The translations under genes and the position numbers were made by a program. Positions 49,334-58,992 of a stretch of 64,000 bases of DNA are shown in pieces (the stretch's first letter is position 1; each line of letters begins with the position of its first letter). The stretch covers positions 1,550,001 to 1,614,000 of the forward strand of contig NC_011726.1 in NCBI RefSeq assembly GCF_000021805.1, given 5' to 3'. The notes beneath the pieces are model-generated. The model searched no databases. It was given only the letters and a program-made list of their open reading frames with translations, and was not told the DNA's origin. The stretch is from Rippkaea orientalis PCC 8801. GTDB taxonomy: Bacteria > Cyanobacteriota > Cyanobacteriia > Cyanobacteriales > Microcystaceae.

Positions 49334-50684
49334 AGGTTCTTGTATATGGAGTCAGCATAGTTACAATTTTAAAAAGTAGCAATGGGAGCTAAATAATAGC
49401 CCCCAATTTAAGACTAACTTACAATTTAATCGTCACCGTCTTAACCTCGGTGTACTGTTGCAGTCCGTATTCACCCAATTCTCGACCCATACCAGACTGT
49501 TTGAACCCACCAAAAGGTGCAGCCGCATCGAAGACATCGTAACAATTGACCCAAACTGTACCCGCACGGACTCCATTAGCGATCGCATGAGCTTTGGTAA
49601 TATCTTTAGTCCAAACCGCAGCAGCTAAGCCATAGATCGTATTATTTGCCCGTTGAATGACCTCCTCAACGTCTTTAAACTTGATAATACTCATCACCGG
49701 TCCAAAAACCTCCTCCTGGGCAATTTTCATATCATCACGAACCCCCGCAAACACTGTGGGCTCGATAAAATAACCGCGATCGCCCAAACGACCCCCACCA
49801 CACAGCATCTGAGCCCCGTCGCGCTGTCCTGACTCGATATAGCCCATCACCTTGTTAAACTGTTCTTGATCGACTTGGGGCCCCTGTTCGGTGTTGCTAT
49901 CGAAGGGATCACCGACGCGACGACTGCGGGCTCGTTCGACACTTTTGGTCACAAATTCGTCATAACAGGACTCTTCGACAAATAGCCGAGATCCCGCACA
50001 ACAACACTGTCCTTGGTTAAAAAACAGCCCCTGATGAGATCCTTCGATGGCTTCCTCAAAATTCGCGTCAGCAAAGACAATATTAGGGCTTTTCCCACCT
50101 AATTCCAAGGTAACGCGCTTGAGGTTACTTTGGGCGGCTGCTTCCATGATCAGGTGTCCCACTTCTGTAGACCCCGTAAAGGCAACTTTATCAATATCCC
50201 TGTGACGGGCGATCGCTTGTCCTGCCGTGGGACCATATCCTGAAAGTAAGTTGACGACTCCAGGGGGGAACCCTGCTTCTAGGATCAATTCTCCGACCCG
50301 TAATGCGGATAGGGGAGTTTGTTCGGCGGTTTTCATGACCACCGTGTTCCCCATGGCTAAAGCGGGGGCTAATTTCCATGCTTGCATCAACAGGGGGAAA
50401 TTCCAAGGGATAATTTGACCGACGACTCCCACCGGTTCATGGCGAGTGTAGCAAAAATAGGGGCCGTTGATGGGAATGGTTTTTCCTTGCACTTTATCCG
50501 CCCAACCCGCATAATAGCGATAGCAAGCGATAACCAGGGATAAATCGGCATTGAGGGAGTCTGTGAGCGGTTTTCCATTATCGAGGGTTTCTAAGCGAGC
50601 TAATTCCTCTTTATTGGCTTCGATCAGGTCAGCTAGTTTATAGATTGACACTCCCACGGGTAGAACCGCGTGGGATTCTTCCAT

Positions 50685-51893
50685 CTAGCCCCCAAAAAGA
50701 GTAGGATCAAATAGAGACAACTGGATGTACTCTATTCGCTCTTTCTGAGTATTCATGAAGTTTGGGGCTGTGCCAAGCAGCCCATGATTTAAGTCGGATG
50801 AATCCATTACAAAAACACCTTGTTTTAGACTTAAATCACATGAGAAACCATCCCATTGAGCTAGGTTTCTACTAGCATTTAGATCAGCGTTATGATAGTG
50901 TCCATTAGGGCAATTAAAATGATGCTTTTTTCTATTCCCAATAACGCCACAAGTGCAACAAGATTTTGAAGTATATGGGGCTGGTCTTTTAATCATTTTC
51001 AACCCTTTAAGAGCCAGCTTGTACTCAAGTTTTTGCTCTAAAGAATAGAAAGACCAACTATATCTTGATTGACCAGAATCAGAGCGAGATTTTTTGCTCT
51101 GTTTCATGGTTTTTCGACAACCTTCTAAATCTTCTATTACCACATCAGCATTTTGATATTCAGCAAAGCGGACAATACGACGACTAATGGTATGGTTAAT
51201 TGAGTCCATCCAACGCCGTTCTTTTTTGTCCCATTTTTTTAATGCCCTAAATTTTTTAGCTTGTTGAAGTTGCTTTCTTCGTTTTTGAAAATAACGACGA
51301 CGGTGCATTACTTCACGCCCACTAAAAAACTTACCACAAGCTTTTTTAGATGCCACAACAGCTAGGTTCTTCTGCCCTCTATCACAACCAATTTTTGTCT
51401 CTGTCGTTATTTCTGGAACATCCTCAATAACTGACAGATAGACATACCATTTATTCCGATGTTTAATTAACTTAAAAGAGCCTCCTTTTATTGTTCCTTC
51501 TAGCAAACCATCTAAGACTGATTGCCAATGAGAAGATGCCACAGAGACAGGAACTCGTTTTTCTCCTCTAGTAGTAGGAAAACTGATTGAATAAGTATCA
51601 CCTTTTTTAGTTAACTTCCAATTTTGATTATTAACTTCAACAGGCAAAACCTTGTACTGCTTAGTCTTTCTACCAGTAGGAGATGTGGTATGCCGAATAG
51701 TTTGATTAACAAGGGCGGATTTTAACTCAGACACTATTTTAGCTGTTGTCATTTTACGTCTTTCCTGAAGAGGTAACGACAACAACTCATTGGCAATTCG
51801 TGTATTTTCAACCGTCATTTCCTCAAATAATTGAGCTTTACAACGGTTAAGTTTCACAAATTTAAGTTTGATAGTGCGAGTTACTTTACCCAT
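50685..51893 (-). CDS. tnpB: TnpB, RNA-guided nuclease of IS200/IS605 elements
   Basis: I start the protein at MGKVTRTIKLKFVKL (51893, 402 residues), not at the longer frame. The RuvC-like acids are Asp171 in KIGCDRGQKNLAVV, Glu254 in DVVIEDLEGCR and Asp337 in HNADLNASRNLA. The zinc-finger region has CCTC (312-315) and CPNGH (328-332), where the fourth ligand seems to be His. TnpB proteins cut DNA matching an omega RNA guide from the element end and so promote retention of the IS. Here only 40 bases separate the stop from the right end, so the omega RNA must overlap the coding region. The insertion-disrupted dehydrogenase's start lies directly after this stop. Confidence 0.9.
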   Translation of the reverse strand: MGKVTRTIKLKFVKLNRCKAQLFEEMTVENTRIANELLSLPLQERRKMTTAKIVSELKSALVNQTIRHTTSPTGRKTKQYKVLPVEVNNQNWKLTKKGDTYSISFPTTRGEKRVPVSVASSHWQSVLDGLLEGTIKGGSFKLIKHRNKWYVYLSVIEDVPEITTETKIGCDRGQKNLAVVASKKACGKFFSGREVMHRRRYFQKRRKQLQQAKKFRALKKWDKKERRWMDSINHTISRRIVRFAEYQNADVVIEDLEGCRKTMKQSKKSRSDSGQSRYSWSFYSLEQKLEYKLALKGLKMIKRPAPYTSKSCCTCGVIGNRKKHHFNCPNGHYHNADLNASRNLAQWDGFSCDLSLKQGVFVMDSSDLNHGLLGTAPNFMNTQKERIEYIQLSLFDPTLFGG

Positions 51894-51937
51894 GTTGACT
51901 ATGATAACATACAGTTGATGAATTGTGTATATCAACA

Positions 51938-52336
51938 ATGACAGAAAATCAGTATAAAAGAAAGCACACATCAGTGAGCCTAATCAACTATCACTTTGTC
52001 TTTTGTCCTAAGAGACGGAAAAAAGTTCTAGTGAATGATGTTGGGAGAAGATTGGAGGAAATCATCTATCAAAAAGCAAAAGAGCTAGAATGTGATGTTC
52101 TGACTCTTGAAATAATGCCTGATCATGTGCATTTATTTATTAGTTGTCCCCCGACACTTGCTCCTCATCAAATTATGTTTAGAATTAAAGGAGCGTCATC
52201 AAGATTATTGAGAAAAGAATTTCCTCATCTACTTAGACTGCCTTCTTTATGGACTAGGAGTTATTATTGTGGAACGGCTGGCCATGTCTCAAGCGAAACT
52301 ATTAAGAAATATATTGCTAATCAACACACTCTTTAA
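51938..52336 (+). CDS. tnpA: TnpA, Y1 HUH single-strand transposase
   Basis: The 132-residue protein (ATG at 51938; a TTG at 51923 would add five residues) has the HUH motif HVHLFI (His63, His65) and the catalytic Tyr125 in TIKKYIANQ. This is the IS200/IS605 Y1 transposase, which cuts and joins single-stranded DNA at hairpin-marked ends. All key residues are present, so the element may still be active. Confidence 0.93.
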   Translation: MTENQYKRKHTSVSLINYHFVFCPKRRKKVLVNDVGRRLEEIIYQKAKELECDVLTLEIMPDHVHLFISCPPTLAPHQIMFRIKGASSRLLRKEFPHLLRLPSLWTRSYYCGTAGHVSSETIKKYIANQHTL

Positions 52337-52800
52337 TCCTCACGCCACCTAAAGGTGGGCATTCTACATCCCACCTCTAAAGATCGCTACGCTGGTGGGC
52401 TTTGAATGCAGTATCCTGTAATTCTCCCCGTTTGGTGGGGGAAAGTTGCGGCCAGTCGCCACGGGTAAACGCTTGACGCGCTGCTTGAACCGCTTTATCG
52501 ACATCAGCCGCATTGGCTTCTGCGACATCACAGATGACTTCTCCTGTAGCGGGGTTAATGGTTTCAAAGCGTTTTCCTGAGACACTTTCGACCCAGTGGT
52601 TATTAATTAATAATTGAGTCGGACCGAGTTTAACTTTAGGTTCTGGTCGAGTTGCTGTTACCATACCGTCCTCCTAGGTTGAGATCTGCTTATAAAATTG
52701 TTATCAAACCTTTATTTCTAGCTTGGATCATCAAGGGTTATTTTTCCAAAATTGATCGAAAAATTTAACTTTTCTTTAGACTCTTTCGCCTTGCTTATTA

Positions 52801-55385: not shown

Positions 55386-55599
55386 CCATTACCAGGGTGG
55401 CCACCACGCCATCCTAAATTTAGGCAAGACAAGACTTTAATGGTAAATTGAATAATAAAGTAATAAAAATAGCATTAGGCAACGCACCCTACAACGGAAG
55501 CGATCGCATTATCTTCTTTAAGAATGGGAAGGCGATCACACTGTGAACTTAAGCGCAATAACTGGGAAAACTAGCAATATAATTAATTTTTATTTTTCT

Positions 55600-57693
55600 A
55601 TGACAAGTCAACTTTATGACAAGGCTTTACGATACCTCCGCCATGCTTTAAATAACCCTAAAGCTAACTTTCGAGACGGACAATGGGAAGCTATTTCAAA
55701 TTTAGTAAACAATCACTCTCGTTTGTTAGTCGTTCAACGGACAGGATGGGGTAAAAGTTTAGTCTATTTTATCGCAACTAGGCTATTACGGGATCAAGGA
55801 GCCGGAACCAGTTTATTAATTTCACCTTTACTAGCTTTAATGCGTAACCAAATTGCGACCGCACAACGAATTAATGTTAATGCAGACACCATCAATTCTA
55901 GTAATACTGAGGAATGGAATAGAGTTCAAGAACAATTATTGGCAGGAAATATTGATATTTTATTAATTTCTCCTGAAAAACTTGCTAATGATCAATTTAG
56001 AGAGAATATTTTGATTACCATTGCTTCTCGTATTAGTTTATTCGTCGTAGATGAGGCGCACTGTATTTCTGATTGGGGACATGACTTTAGACCAGATTAT
56101 CGTCGAATTGCCCGTATTTTACAAGCTTTACCCGCTAATATTCCTGTTTTAGCCACTACAGCAACCGCAAATAATCGAGTAGTTAATGATATTAAGGCGC
56201 AATTGGGAGACAGCTTACAAATTAGTCGAGGAAACTTAACCAGACAAAGCTTAAAGCTACAAAACCTCTATTTTCCTAGTCCTGCTGCACGCTTAGCTTG
56301 GTTAGCACAATATATTCCTACTTTACCGAGTTCTGGTATCGTCTATACCCTAACAGTAAGGGACGCTCAAAGGGTGGCCAACTGGTTAAAACAGCAAGGA
56401 ATTGATGCAGAAGCTTATTATGGAGCGTTAGAGAAAAAAATCAGGGAACCTTTGGAAGATCAACTATTAAACAATGAAATTAAGGTATTAGTAGCAACAA
56501 CGGCGTTAGGGATGGGATTTGACAAACCCGATTTAGGTTTTGTGATACACTATCAGCGTCCTGGTTCTGTTGTTCACTATTATCAGCAAGTAGGACGTGC
56601 CGGACGTGCAGTAGATCAAGCTTATGGAATTCTTTTAAGTGGGGATGAAGACGAAGAAATTAGCAAATATTTTATCGAAAATGCTTTTCCACCTGAAGTT
56701 CACAACCAAGAAGTTTTAAATGCTCTAGAATCGGCTCAAAATGGCTTATCTGTACGAGAATTAGAGCAAAAATTAAATCTATCAAGGGGACAAATCGATA
56801 AGGTATTAAAGTTACTGTCCTTGGAATCTCCTGCACTTGTAAGCAAGCAAGAGTCAAAATGGTATGCAACAGCCGTCAATTATCAACCCAATCGACAAAA
56901 AATTAAACAATTAACCGATATTCGTTACGAAGAACAAGATCAAATGCGGGATTATATGAAGAGTGACAGTTGTTTGATGCAGTTTTTAGCCTCTGCATTA
57001 GATGATGAAAACCCGACAGTTTGTGGAAAATGTGCCGTTTGTTTAGGTAAATCTTTACTGCCTGTCACCTATTCCCCTAATTTAGTTGATCAAGCAGTAA
57101 TGTTTCTCAAACGCAGTGATCACATCATCGAACCGAGGAAACAATGGCCATTAAAAGGTGCATTTTCAGTGTATCAGTTTTCAGGTAACATTAAACCAGA
57201 ATTAACAGCAGAAAATGGTAGAGCATTATGTTTATGGGGAGATGCTGGATGGGGACAATTAGTCAAACAAGGAAAATATGAAACTAATCATTTTGATGAT
57301 CACTTGGTAGAAGCAATGGCAGAAATGATTCAACGTTGGAAACCTGAACCTAAACCCACTTGGATAACTTGTATTCCTTCTCTAAATCGTCCCCATTTAG
57401 TGCCTAATTTTAGTCAAAGATTGGCTAATCATTTACAAATACTTTTTATTCCAGTGGTTACAAAAATCAAGAAAAATCCACCACAAAAAAACATGAGCAA
57501 TAGTTATCAACAAGCTCACAATTTAGATGGAGTATTTAGCATCGATAGGGAAAAAGTAATGCCAGATTCTGTCTTTTTAGTCGATGATTTTGTTGATTCT
57601 CGTTGGACATTAACCGTCGTTTCTGCACTGTTACGTCAAACTGGAAGTGGTCAAGTTTTTCCCACAACTTTAGCGTTAAATTCTTTATCTTAA
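55600..57693 (+). CDS. RecQ-family helicase fused to a ComF-like phosphoribosyltransferase domain
   Basis: The 697-residue protein has a RecQ superfamily-2 core: Walker A RTGWGKS (47-53), DEAH at 151-154 (VVDEAHCISDWGHDFRPDY) and QQVGRAGR (about 329-336). The zinc site Cys458, Cys475, Cys478, Cys481 has exactly the E. coli RecQ spacing (17, 3, 3). A winged-helix-like segment precedes it (VRELEQKLNLSRGQ). The C-terminal 200 residues read as a ComF-type PRTase, with TWITCIPSLNRPHLVPNFSQ and the PRPP loop VFLVDDFVDSRWT near residue 658. I chose the ATG at 55600 over the GTG at 55543. It is followed after 18 bases by a DprA-like gene. Confidence 0.85.
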   Translation: MTSQLYDKALRYLRHALNNPKANFRDGQWEAISNLVNNHSRLLVVQRTGWGKSLVYFIATRLLRDQGAGTSLLISPLLALMRNQIATAQRINVNADTINSSNTEEWNRVQEQLLAGNIDILLISPEKLANDQFRENILITIASRISLFVVDEAHCISDWGHDFRPDYRRIARILQALPANIPVLATTATANNRVVNDIKAQLGDSLQISRGNLTRQSLKLQNLYFPSPAARLAWLAQYIPTLPSSGIVYTLTVRDAQRVANWLKQQGIDAEAYYGALEKKIREPLEDQLLNNEIKVLVATTALGMGFDKPDLGFVIHYQRPGSVVHYYQQVGRAGRAVDQAYGILLSGDEDEEISKYFIENAFPPEVHNQEVLNALESAQNGLSVRELEQKLNLSRGQIDKVLKLLSLESPALVSKQESKWYATAVNYQPNRQKIKQLTDIRYEEQDQMRDYMKSDSCLMQFLASALDDENPTVCGKCAVCLGKSLLPVTYSPNLVDQAVMFLKRSDHIIEPRKQWPLKGAFSVYQFSGNIKPELTAENGRALCLWGDAGWGQLVKQGKYETNHFDDHLVEAMAEMIQRWKPEPKPTWITCIPSLNRPHLVPNFSQRLANHLQILFIPVVTKIKKNPPQKNMSNSYQQAHNLDGVFSIDREKVMPDSVFLVDDFVDSRWTLTVVSALLRQTGSGQVFPTTLALNSLS

Positions 57694-57711
57694 AGTTATT
57701 TGGTATCAATT

Positions 57712-58992
57712 ATGCTTTCCCCTGACACTCAAGCTATTTTACTTCTTTGTGCAAGTTTTGGTCAAAATCGTCAAACCGAACCCTTTCCTTTAACTCTTGG
57801 TGAATATAATACCCTTGCTGGTTGGTTAAGAGCAGAAAATATGTTTCCTCAAGACCTACTTAACCCTAATTTTATCAGTCGTCTTTCTCAGTTAACCATA
57901 GGTAAATTAGATTCTAAACGATTAGTTGCATTGCTACAAAGAGGGGGATTATTAGCTTTGACTGTTGAAAAATGGCTTAATCAAGGTTTATGGATTATTA
58001 GTCGTGGAGATGCTGACTATCCCCTGCGATTAAAACAACAATTAAAATATTTAGCTCCTCCTATTTTATATGGAATTGGGAACAAAGATTTATTATCAAA
58101 AGGGGGGTTAGCTGTTGTTGGTTCTCGTAATGTGGATCAAGAAGGATTAGACTATACTTATCACGTTGTAGAAGCTTGTGCAGAACAAAATATTCAAGTG
58201 ATTTCAGGAGGTGCAAAAGGGGTTGATCAAGCTTCGATGTTAGGAACGTTAAAAGTAGGAGGTACAGTGATTGGCGTATTAGCTAATAACTTACTTAAAG
58301 CATCTGTTGATGGAAAATATCGTACCAGTATTAAAGAAGGAAAACTAACTTTAATTTCTGCGGTTGATCCTAATGCTTCCTTTCATGTTGGTAACGCTAT
58401 GAGACGTAATAAATATATCTATGCTTTGGCTAATTATGGGTTAGTTATTAGTGCTGACTATAACACAGGTGGAACATGGGCAGGAGCAACAGAAGCTTTA
58501 AATACAATTAAGGATGTCCCTATTTTAGTGCGAATACAGGGAACAATATCAGAAGGCAATCAACATTTATTAAAACAAGGTGCAAAACCTTTTCCTGAAA
58601 CTCCTTGGAATCGTCCGATTAAAGAATTAATTGAAACTACTGTATCAGAATATAAAAGCATAGAATTTCGTCAAAATAATACTCAATTGAATTTATTTAG
58701 TCAGGATAATCATTCTGTTGTTTCTGACAATAAAGATGAACTTACACCGCAAGATCCTGATATCTCTTCCCGTGATGATGCTTTGAAATCGGCCTCAGAA
58801 AGACTTTATTATGCTGTTTTACCTATCATTCTTCAAGAACTAAACCAACCACAAGATCCGAAATCTTTAGCAACTAATCTAGATGTTCAAGTTGGTCAAC
58901 TAAGCAAATGGCTAAAAAAAGCAGTTACAGATAAAAAAGTTATCAAACAGACTAAAAATAACCAAGTTATTTATAAATCAAATAAAGTATAA
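57712..58992 (+). CDS. DprA/Smf-like SLOG-fold protein
   Basis: The protein has an N-terminal helical region (1-90), the SLOG Rossmann core with LAVVGSRNVDQEGL (about 134-147) and ISGGAKGVDQASM (about 163-175), and a C-terminal winged helix (LYYAVLPIILQEL, then LSKWLKKAVTDKKV). DprA protects incoming single-stranded DNA and loads RecA in transformation; related SLOG proteins also serve in defence as nucleotide sensors. The ATG at 57712 gives 426 residues; a TTG at 57700 is possible. A proper dprA for competence should exist elsewhere, so this copy may be specialised to its RecQ-ComF neighbour (inference). Confidence 0.82.
   Translation: MLSPDTQAILLLCASFGQNRQTEPFPLTLGEYNTLAGWLRAENMFPQDLLNPNFISRLSQLTIGKLDSKRLVALLQRGGLLALTVEKWLNQGLWIISRGDADYPLRLKQQLKYLAPPILYGIGNKDLLSKGGLAVVGSRNVDQEGLDYTYHVVEACAEQNIQVISGGAKGVDQASMLGTLKVGGTVIGVLANNLLKASVDGKYRTSIKEGKLTLISAVDPNASFHVGNAMRRNKYIYALANYGLVISADYNTGGTWAGATEALNTIKDVPILVRIQGTISEGNQHLLKQGAKPFPETPWNRPIKELIETTVSEYKSIEFRQNNTQLNLFSQDNHSVVSDNKDELTPQDPDISSRDDALKSASERLYYAVLPIILQELNQPQDPKSLATNLDVQVGQLSKWLKKAVTDKKVIKQTKNNQVIYKSNKV

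Follow-up and report, generated by a model that had tools for sequence, protein, structure and literature searches.

A putative PsyrTA (RqlHI) toxin-antitoxin gene pair in the cyanobacterium Rippkaea orientalis PCC 8801

The window, a stretch of 64,000 nucleotides from contig NC_011726.1 of Rippkaea orientalis PCC 8801, contains two intact genes on the + strand, at 55600-57693 and 57712-58992, separated by a gap of 18 bases (57694-57711). Judged from their profile matches and motifs, these genes are a member of PsyrTA, also known as RqlHI, a pair already named and partly studied and not a new one. The founding PsyrTA paper is said to be that of Sberro et al. 2013. The first gene is predicted to encode the toxin, a RecQ-type helicase with a C-terminal phosphoribosyltransferase (PRTase), and the second its DprA-like antitoxin. 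The pair is most likely a toxin-antitoxin module, for which a role in defence is presumed. The basis for this is family membership, intact motifs, a ComF/ShosT-like fold, tight linkage, patchiness, the decay of one relative's copy and the defence neighbours of some relatives. A sequence-only reading of the same DNA had taken the pair for an unnamed module. It is a known one, both by its PADLOC profiles and from excerpts of PMC4670107, and what resembled a novel compressed competence module can now be named and assigned a mechanism tested in part.

Domains and family identity of the two proteins

The psyrT/rqlH-type gene (55600-57693, +) encodes 697 residues. An in-frame GTG at 55543, upstream of the 55600 start, gives a reading of 716 residues, of which residues 26-714 match positions 6-685 of the PADLOC PsyrT profile (length 689) at 1009.6 bits. 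The helicase core, at approximately residues 1-370 (55600-56709), is matched by DEAD and Helicase_C and carries the Walker A lysine K52, DEAH at 151-154 and GRAGR at 332-336. The protein passes the RecQ subfamily model TIGR00614 (266.1 bits; cut-off 219.8), and motif reading placed the zinc site at Cys458, 475, 478 and 481 (56971-57042), exactly the cysteines listed in the sequence-only reading. It scores below the cut-off of the RecQ equivalog TIGR01389 (308.7 against 640.2 bits) and is not a canonical RecQ.

The presumed toxic domain occupies the last 200 or so residues (496-697; 57085-57690, +). Within it, motif reading and alignment locate the loop for phosphoribosyl pyrophosphate (PRPP), V-F-L-V-D-D-F-V-D-S-R-W-T-L-T, at residues 658-672 (57571-57615). 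Structural comparison of this C-terminus, a test set beforehand, returned a PRTase fold matching both ComF and ShosT, in agreement with the ComF-like PRTase originally described. The folds of the PRTase and of the antitoxin were predicted at high confidence for the window proteins.

The psyrA/rqlI-type gene (57712-58992, +) opens at ATG 57712 or, alternatively, at TTG 57700. Nearly the full length of its product matches the PADLOC PsyrA profile (446.4 bits), and Pfam DNA_processg_A is matched at 135.9 bits. The DprA-like SLOG (Rossmann) domain spans approximately residues 94-300 of the TTG reading (57979-58599, +), with GSR at 141-143, SGGAKGVD at 169-176 and GGTWAG at 257-262. A winged helix follows at the C-terminal, at approximately residues 357-428 (58768-58983, +), so that the protein first described as DprA-like with its own winged helix is just that. 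Glu265 was considered as a hallmark of PsyrA and dropped because 15 of the 17 ordinary DprA rows also have a glutamate there.

Among 88 aligned PsyrT proteins (75 paired with PsyrA and 13 unpaired), K52, D151, E152 and H154 of the helicase and D662 and W669 of the PRPP loop are each kept in every one. D663 is kept in 74 of the 75 paired and 12 of the 13 unpaired proteins. Each zinc-site cysteine is kept in 56-58 of the paired and 12-13 of the unpaired proteins. The zinc-site cysteines are missing in 17 of the 75 paired proteins, where the helicase motifs are intact.

Linkage, distribution and neighbourhoods

In a survey of 244 genomes of the phylum, PsyrT was counted only above 700 bits because its profile also matches ordinary RecQ (122 of the 244 genomes at 1e-60); the next match, at 408 bits, reaches no further than position 487 of the 689-position profile. 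Thirteen genomes carry a PsyrT above this threshold, and PsyrA lies directly downstream on the same strand in all 13, which upholds the linkage expected of the two genes in relatives. PsyrA exceeds 200 bits in 14 genomes, the fourteenth being a member of the same family (G105) with a decayed remnant of the pair (L084, 9447-10530). The pieces of this remnant are 88-91% identical in DNA to the window pair. Three internal deletions have cost it the greater part of the helicase, the PRPP loop and portions of the antitoxin, and two of the three breakpoints show overlaps of 8 and 13 bases between the matching pieces. The pair is absent from both same-genus genomes. In all 12 same-family regions fetched, fusA, tufA and rpsJ stand together, and in none does the pair stand beside rpsJ, for which reason it was rejected as a conserved part of the str neighbourhood; two of these regions (L178, L180) extend less than 3.5 kb past rpsJ. 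The pair is accessory and patchily distributed. In one relative (G133; L180, 1046-2122) a RecQ-type helicase adjoins rpsJ, the site of the pair in the window; it is only 35% identical, over residues 24-386, and has no PsyrA match.

A wider set of 99 loci comprised 12 phylum regions, the G105 remnant, six plasmid loci and 80 genome loci, the last being the best 80 of at least 589 relatives and biased to close ones; two duplicate sequences (L093, L107) are included. A PsyrA-like open reading frame (ORF) was present within 2.5 kb downstream in 78 of the 99 loci and absent in 21. A quick tree search of 94 PsyrT proteins, with no bootstrap and with several rows of odd composition, clustered the window PsyrT with 18 other cyanobacterial rows at a Shimodaira-Hasegawa-like approximate likelihood ratio (SH-aLRT) support of 99. 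Two further members of the phylum (L083, L122) were placed elsewhere; because they fall outside the cyanobacterial group, horizontal movement of the pair is suggested. Four changes along the tree account for the paired and unpaired states, and ten unpaired rows from Actinobacteria fall into a single group. An archaeal bin (Methanoregula, L163) also carries the pair, near a type II DNA methyltransferase gene. On pSymB of Sinorhizobium meliloti (L087) the toxin ORF is intact and the downstream PsyrA-like match is split over two ORFs, where no gene is annotated in an annotation listing that is itself incomplete. Phage records, searched with PsyrA only, gave DprA-like matches that were all partial and covered less than 80% of PsyrA.

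The neighbourhoods of some relatives contain defence genes. On an E. coli plasmid the S and R genes of a type I restriction operon flank the pair; on an Acinetobacter plasmid it is found between pglX and pglZ of BREX, and in a verrucomicrobial locus (L099) between HmaB and HmaC. A figure legend in PMC10117892 draws recQ and dprA with such BREX loci. In L132 and L134 the pair stands beside PglZ and BrxL, and in the cyanobacterial L076 it is 5.7 kb from HmaA. Pairs inside or adjoining type I restriction, BREX or Hma operons were seen in L085, L088, L099, L132 and L134. Neighbouring ORFs came from a simple longest-ORF caller, which performs poorly in GC-rich genomes. The 107 ORFs flanking 27 paired loci, out of 30 passing a flank filter (L096, L109 and L158 were left out), matched 123 PADLOC families at 1e-20. 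No family was matched at 1e-20 by the 61 ORFs flanking 11 of 13 solo, PsyrA-less loci, sampled at up to three genes a side against up to two for paired loci. When 20 of the 107 paired-neighbour ORFs, chosen mainly for length, were checked singly, seven matched at 1e-60, in four loci, and 13 did not.

The host genome (4.79 Mb in four contigs, with the locus on contig C3) contains a better DprA at C3:666334 (259.1 bits against 138.1 for the window PsyrA). Two further RecQs were found at C3:1090585 (563.9 bits) and C3:4599156 (322.8 bits), and a separate ComF-like gene at C3:550962, whose 89.2 bits lie below that model's own cut-off of 233.55. The separate copies whose presence the sequence-only reading had left to be checked therefore exist: the pair is neither the sole RecQ and sole DprA nor the only ComF and DprA of the host, and it is not the host's competence set. 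The host's own ComF-like gene and DprA were the ground for rejecting a competence module. What stands of the proposed likeness to transformation is the real homology of the parts to ComF and DprA; the notion of a compressed transformation apparatus is not supported. It is very improbable that the pair is a compressed DNA-uptake module, in which helicase, ComF-type PRTase and DprA handle incoming single strands. The same comF/DprA analogy was raised in the 2015 Discussion of PMC4670107. According to excerpts of that paper, E. coli RqlHI acts as a toxin with its antitoxin, and no transformation of the isolates could be detected by the authors. Further arguments against uptake are that only 13 of 244 genomes have the pair and that it is found on plasmids and within BREX and restriction operons.

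Around the window pair, ten genes are mostly metabolic or ribosomal by Pfam, and the nearest mobile-element genes seen belong to an IS200/IS605 pair whose end lies 3.3 kb from it. This IS200/IS605-type element (49419-52664 with its flanks) has a Y1 transposase at 51923-52336 (+) and a TnpB-like gene at 50685-51971 (-). The flanking ORFs at 52377-52664 (-) and 49419-50684 (-) were read by eye as aldehyde dehydrogenase halves, and it looks as though the element interrupted that gene. Scans of the window gave no RNA family at gathering score, no tRNA and no promoter or terminator signal better than shuffles, and repeats around the pair were unremarkable.

Proposed mechanism and its alternatives

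That the window genes form a PsyrTA/RqlHI toxin-antitoxin pair with the following mechanism is judged quite probable. The PRTase of PsyrT would use PRPP and either make a product or upset the nucleotide pool, with DNA damage and a growth stop as the outcome. This effector would need the rest of PsyrT and seems to be restrained by helicase activity. PsyrA, probably encoded in the same operon, would bind the PRTase domain and keep it harmless. Infection or DNA stress would upset the balance, upon which the toxin would act and the cell would stop.

The model leans on E. coli RqlHI. The excerpted text of PMC4670107 describes RqlH as toxic through its PRTase, which is insufficient for toxicity alone, and reports a restraining effect of the helicase domain. 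In the same excerpts RqlI relieves wild-type RqlH toxicity, and the two proteins co-immunoprecipitate only if the PRTase domain is present. Toxicity depends on the PRPP pocket: with D663 changed to alanine, or with four residues of the pocket changed, RqlH affected viable counts no more than modestly. The cyanobacterial copy presumably behaves like E. coli RqlHI; phage or DNA stress may be its trigger, and the PRTase chemistry may be as outlined. For ShosTA, part of a review (PMC12593503) has the toxin disturbing purine metabolism, with T7 Gp0.7 as trigger. This account is the best available hint on mechanism. Pu et al. 2025 is reportedly its source. The portion of PMC9122126 on a DprA-PRTase pair reports protection against T7 and lambda, and PsyrTA is listed among cyanobacterial defence systems in the part of a 2024 bloom survey that covers them (PMC11265339).

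Several observations weigh against a defence toxin-antitoxin pair of this kind. Excerpts of PMC4670107 state that RqlH with a dead helicase still lowered viable counts and that an additional PRPP-pocket mutation rescued this but RqlI did not; an antidote model therefore explains only part of the behaviour. From the excerpts of PMC12409345, deletion of PsyrTA from E. coli NILS69 changed the infectivity of no phage, so that copy seems not to contribute to defence under the conditions and phages tested; placed in K-12, PsyrTA conferred no protection that could be detected, and that strain showed a growth defect. PsyrT occurs without PsyrA in 14 of the 99 loci despite at least 1.5 kb of downstream sequence. 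The ten genes around the window pair matched no PADLOC family at 1e-5. In cyanobacteria the difference between pairs and controls is not clear, with 110 against 66 PADLOC families at 1e-20 (115 against 107 ORFs). Pairs were represented there by the window and 11 fetched loci, 12 in all, with G048 and G122 excluded; the 11 controls came mostly from the same genomes, consisted of nine RecQ loci, a DprA locus and an arbitrarily chosen stretch, and included a Septu pair. Nearness to defence genes, a check suggested in the sequence-only reading, holds for some pairs inside BREX, Hma and type I restriction operons and was not seen among the ten genes around the window copy, the cyanobacterial comparison being unclear. 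The conflict-type reading is likely sound, and the window copy may have a defence role.

An addiction or genome-stabilising pair with no defence role is rather unlikely. Plasmid occurrence, as beside ParA/ParB on Nostoc pNPM3, the NILS69 result (PMC12409345, excerpted) and the lack of a defence gene found near the window copy all fit it. The window copy is chromosomal, with the IS200/IS605 genes as the nearest mobile-element genes seen, and family relatives lack the pair or hold a degraded copy, which speaks against addiction. A repair or recombination pair, in which the PRTase alters a nucleotide at damage, the DprA-like partner and helicase resolve the product and toxicity arises only if one half is missing, is unlikely. 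It agrees with the Fig 10 model in the excerpted PMC4670107, the restraining helicase described there, the helicase motifs kept in all 88 proteins and the PsyrA-less versions, 11 of which have no defence neighbours found. Counting against repair are the patchy distribution, the lack of the pair beside rpsJ in 12 relatives, one of which has a decayed copy, and the embedding of several pairs in defence operons.

A more speculative reading is unlikely. The helicase-PRTase would be a damage- or infection-gated base- or nucleotide-modifying effector, repeatedly plugged into type I restriction, BREX and Hma operons as a backup killer that fires when the host operon fails, and the PsyrA-less actinobacterial forms would be a tamed repair version, ancestral or derived. 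The present analysis adds a chromosomal cyanobacterial member to PsyrTA, together with a relative whose pair is decaying. It also contrasts paired copies, of which some are embedded in BREX, Hma or restriction operons, with solo copies, for which 11 loci yielded no defence neighbours. That embedding and this contrast may merit attention.

Comparison with known systems

Compared with ComFA, ComFC and DprA of transformation, the window helicase differs in being of RecQ type and fused to the PRTase. ShosTA (8zvc, 8zvd, 8zvb, 8zva, 9vzo) is a match at the level of fold only, with 9-10% identity in the PRTase. To our knowledge, and going by chain length, ShosT presumably has no RecQ helicase. The solo RqlH of Actinobacteria, such as that of Mycobacterium smegmatis cited in the excerpts of PMC4670107, has the same helicase-PRTase architecture and differs in that no PsyrA-like partner was found downstream.

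PsyrTA of Pseudomonas syringae (PADLOC PDLC03928/PDLC03927) has the same two genes, order and domains as the window pair; the window copy differs in being cyanobacterial and beside the str operon. RqlHI of E. coli F11 (Russell and Mulvey 2015, PMC4670107, excerpted) likewise has a RecQ-like helicase with a C-terminal PRTase followed by a DprA-like/helix-turn-helix protein, and both it and the window pair have a DIVD-type PRPP pocket. The window toxin is 54% identical to an E. coli plasmid relative, which is not F11 RqlH itself. The survey in the excerpted PMC4670107 also names a cyanobacterial member, Trichodesmium erythraeum, in which 2196 bp lie between the two genes, in contrast to the 18 bases in the window.
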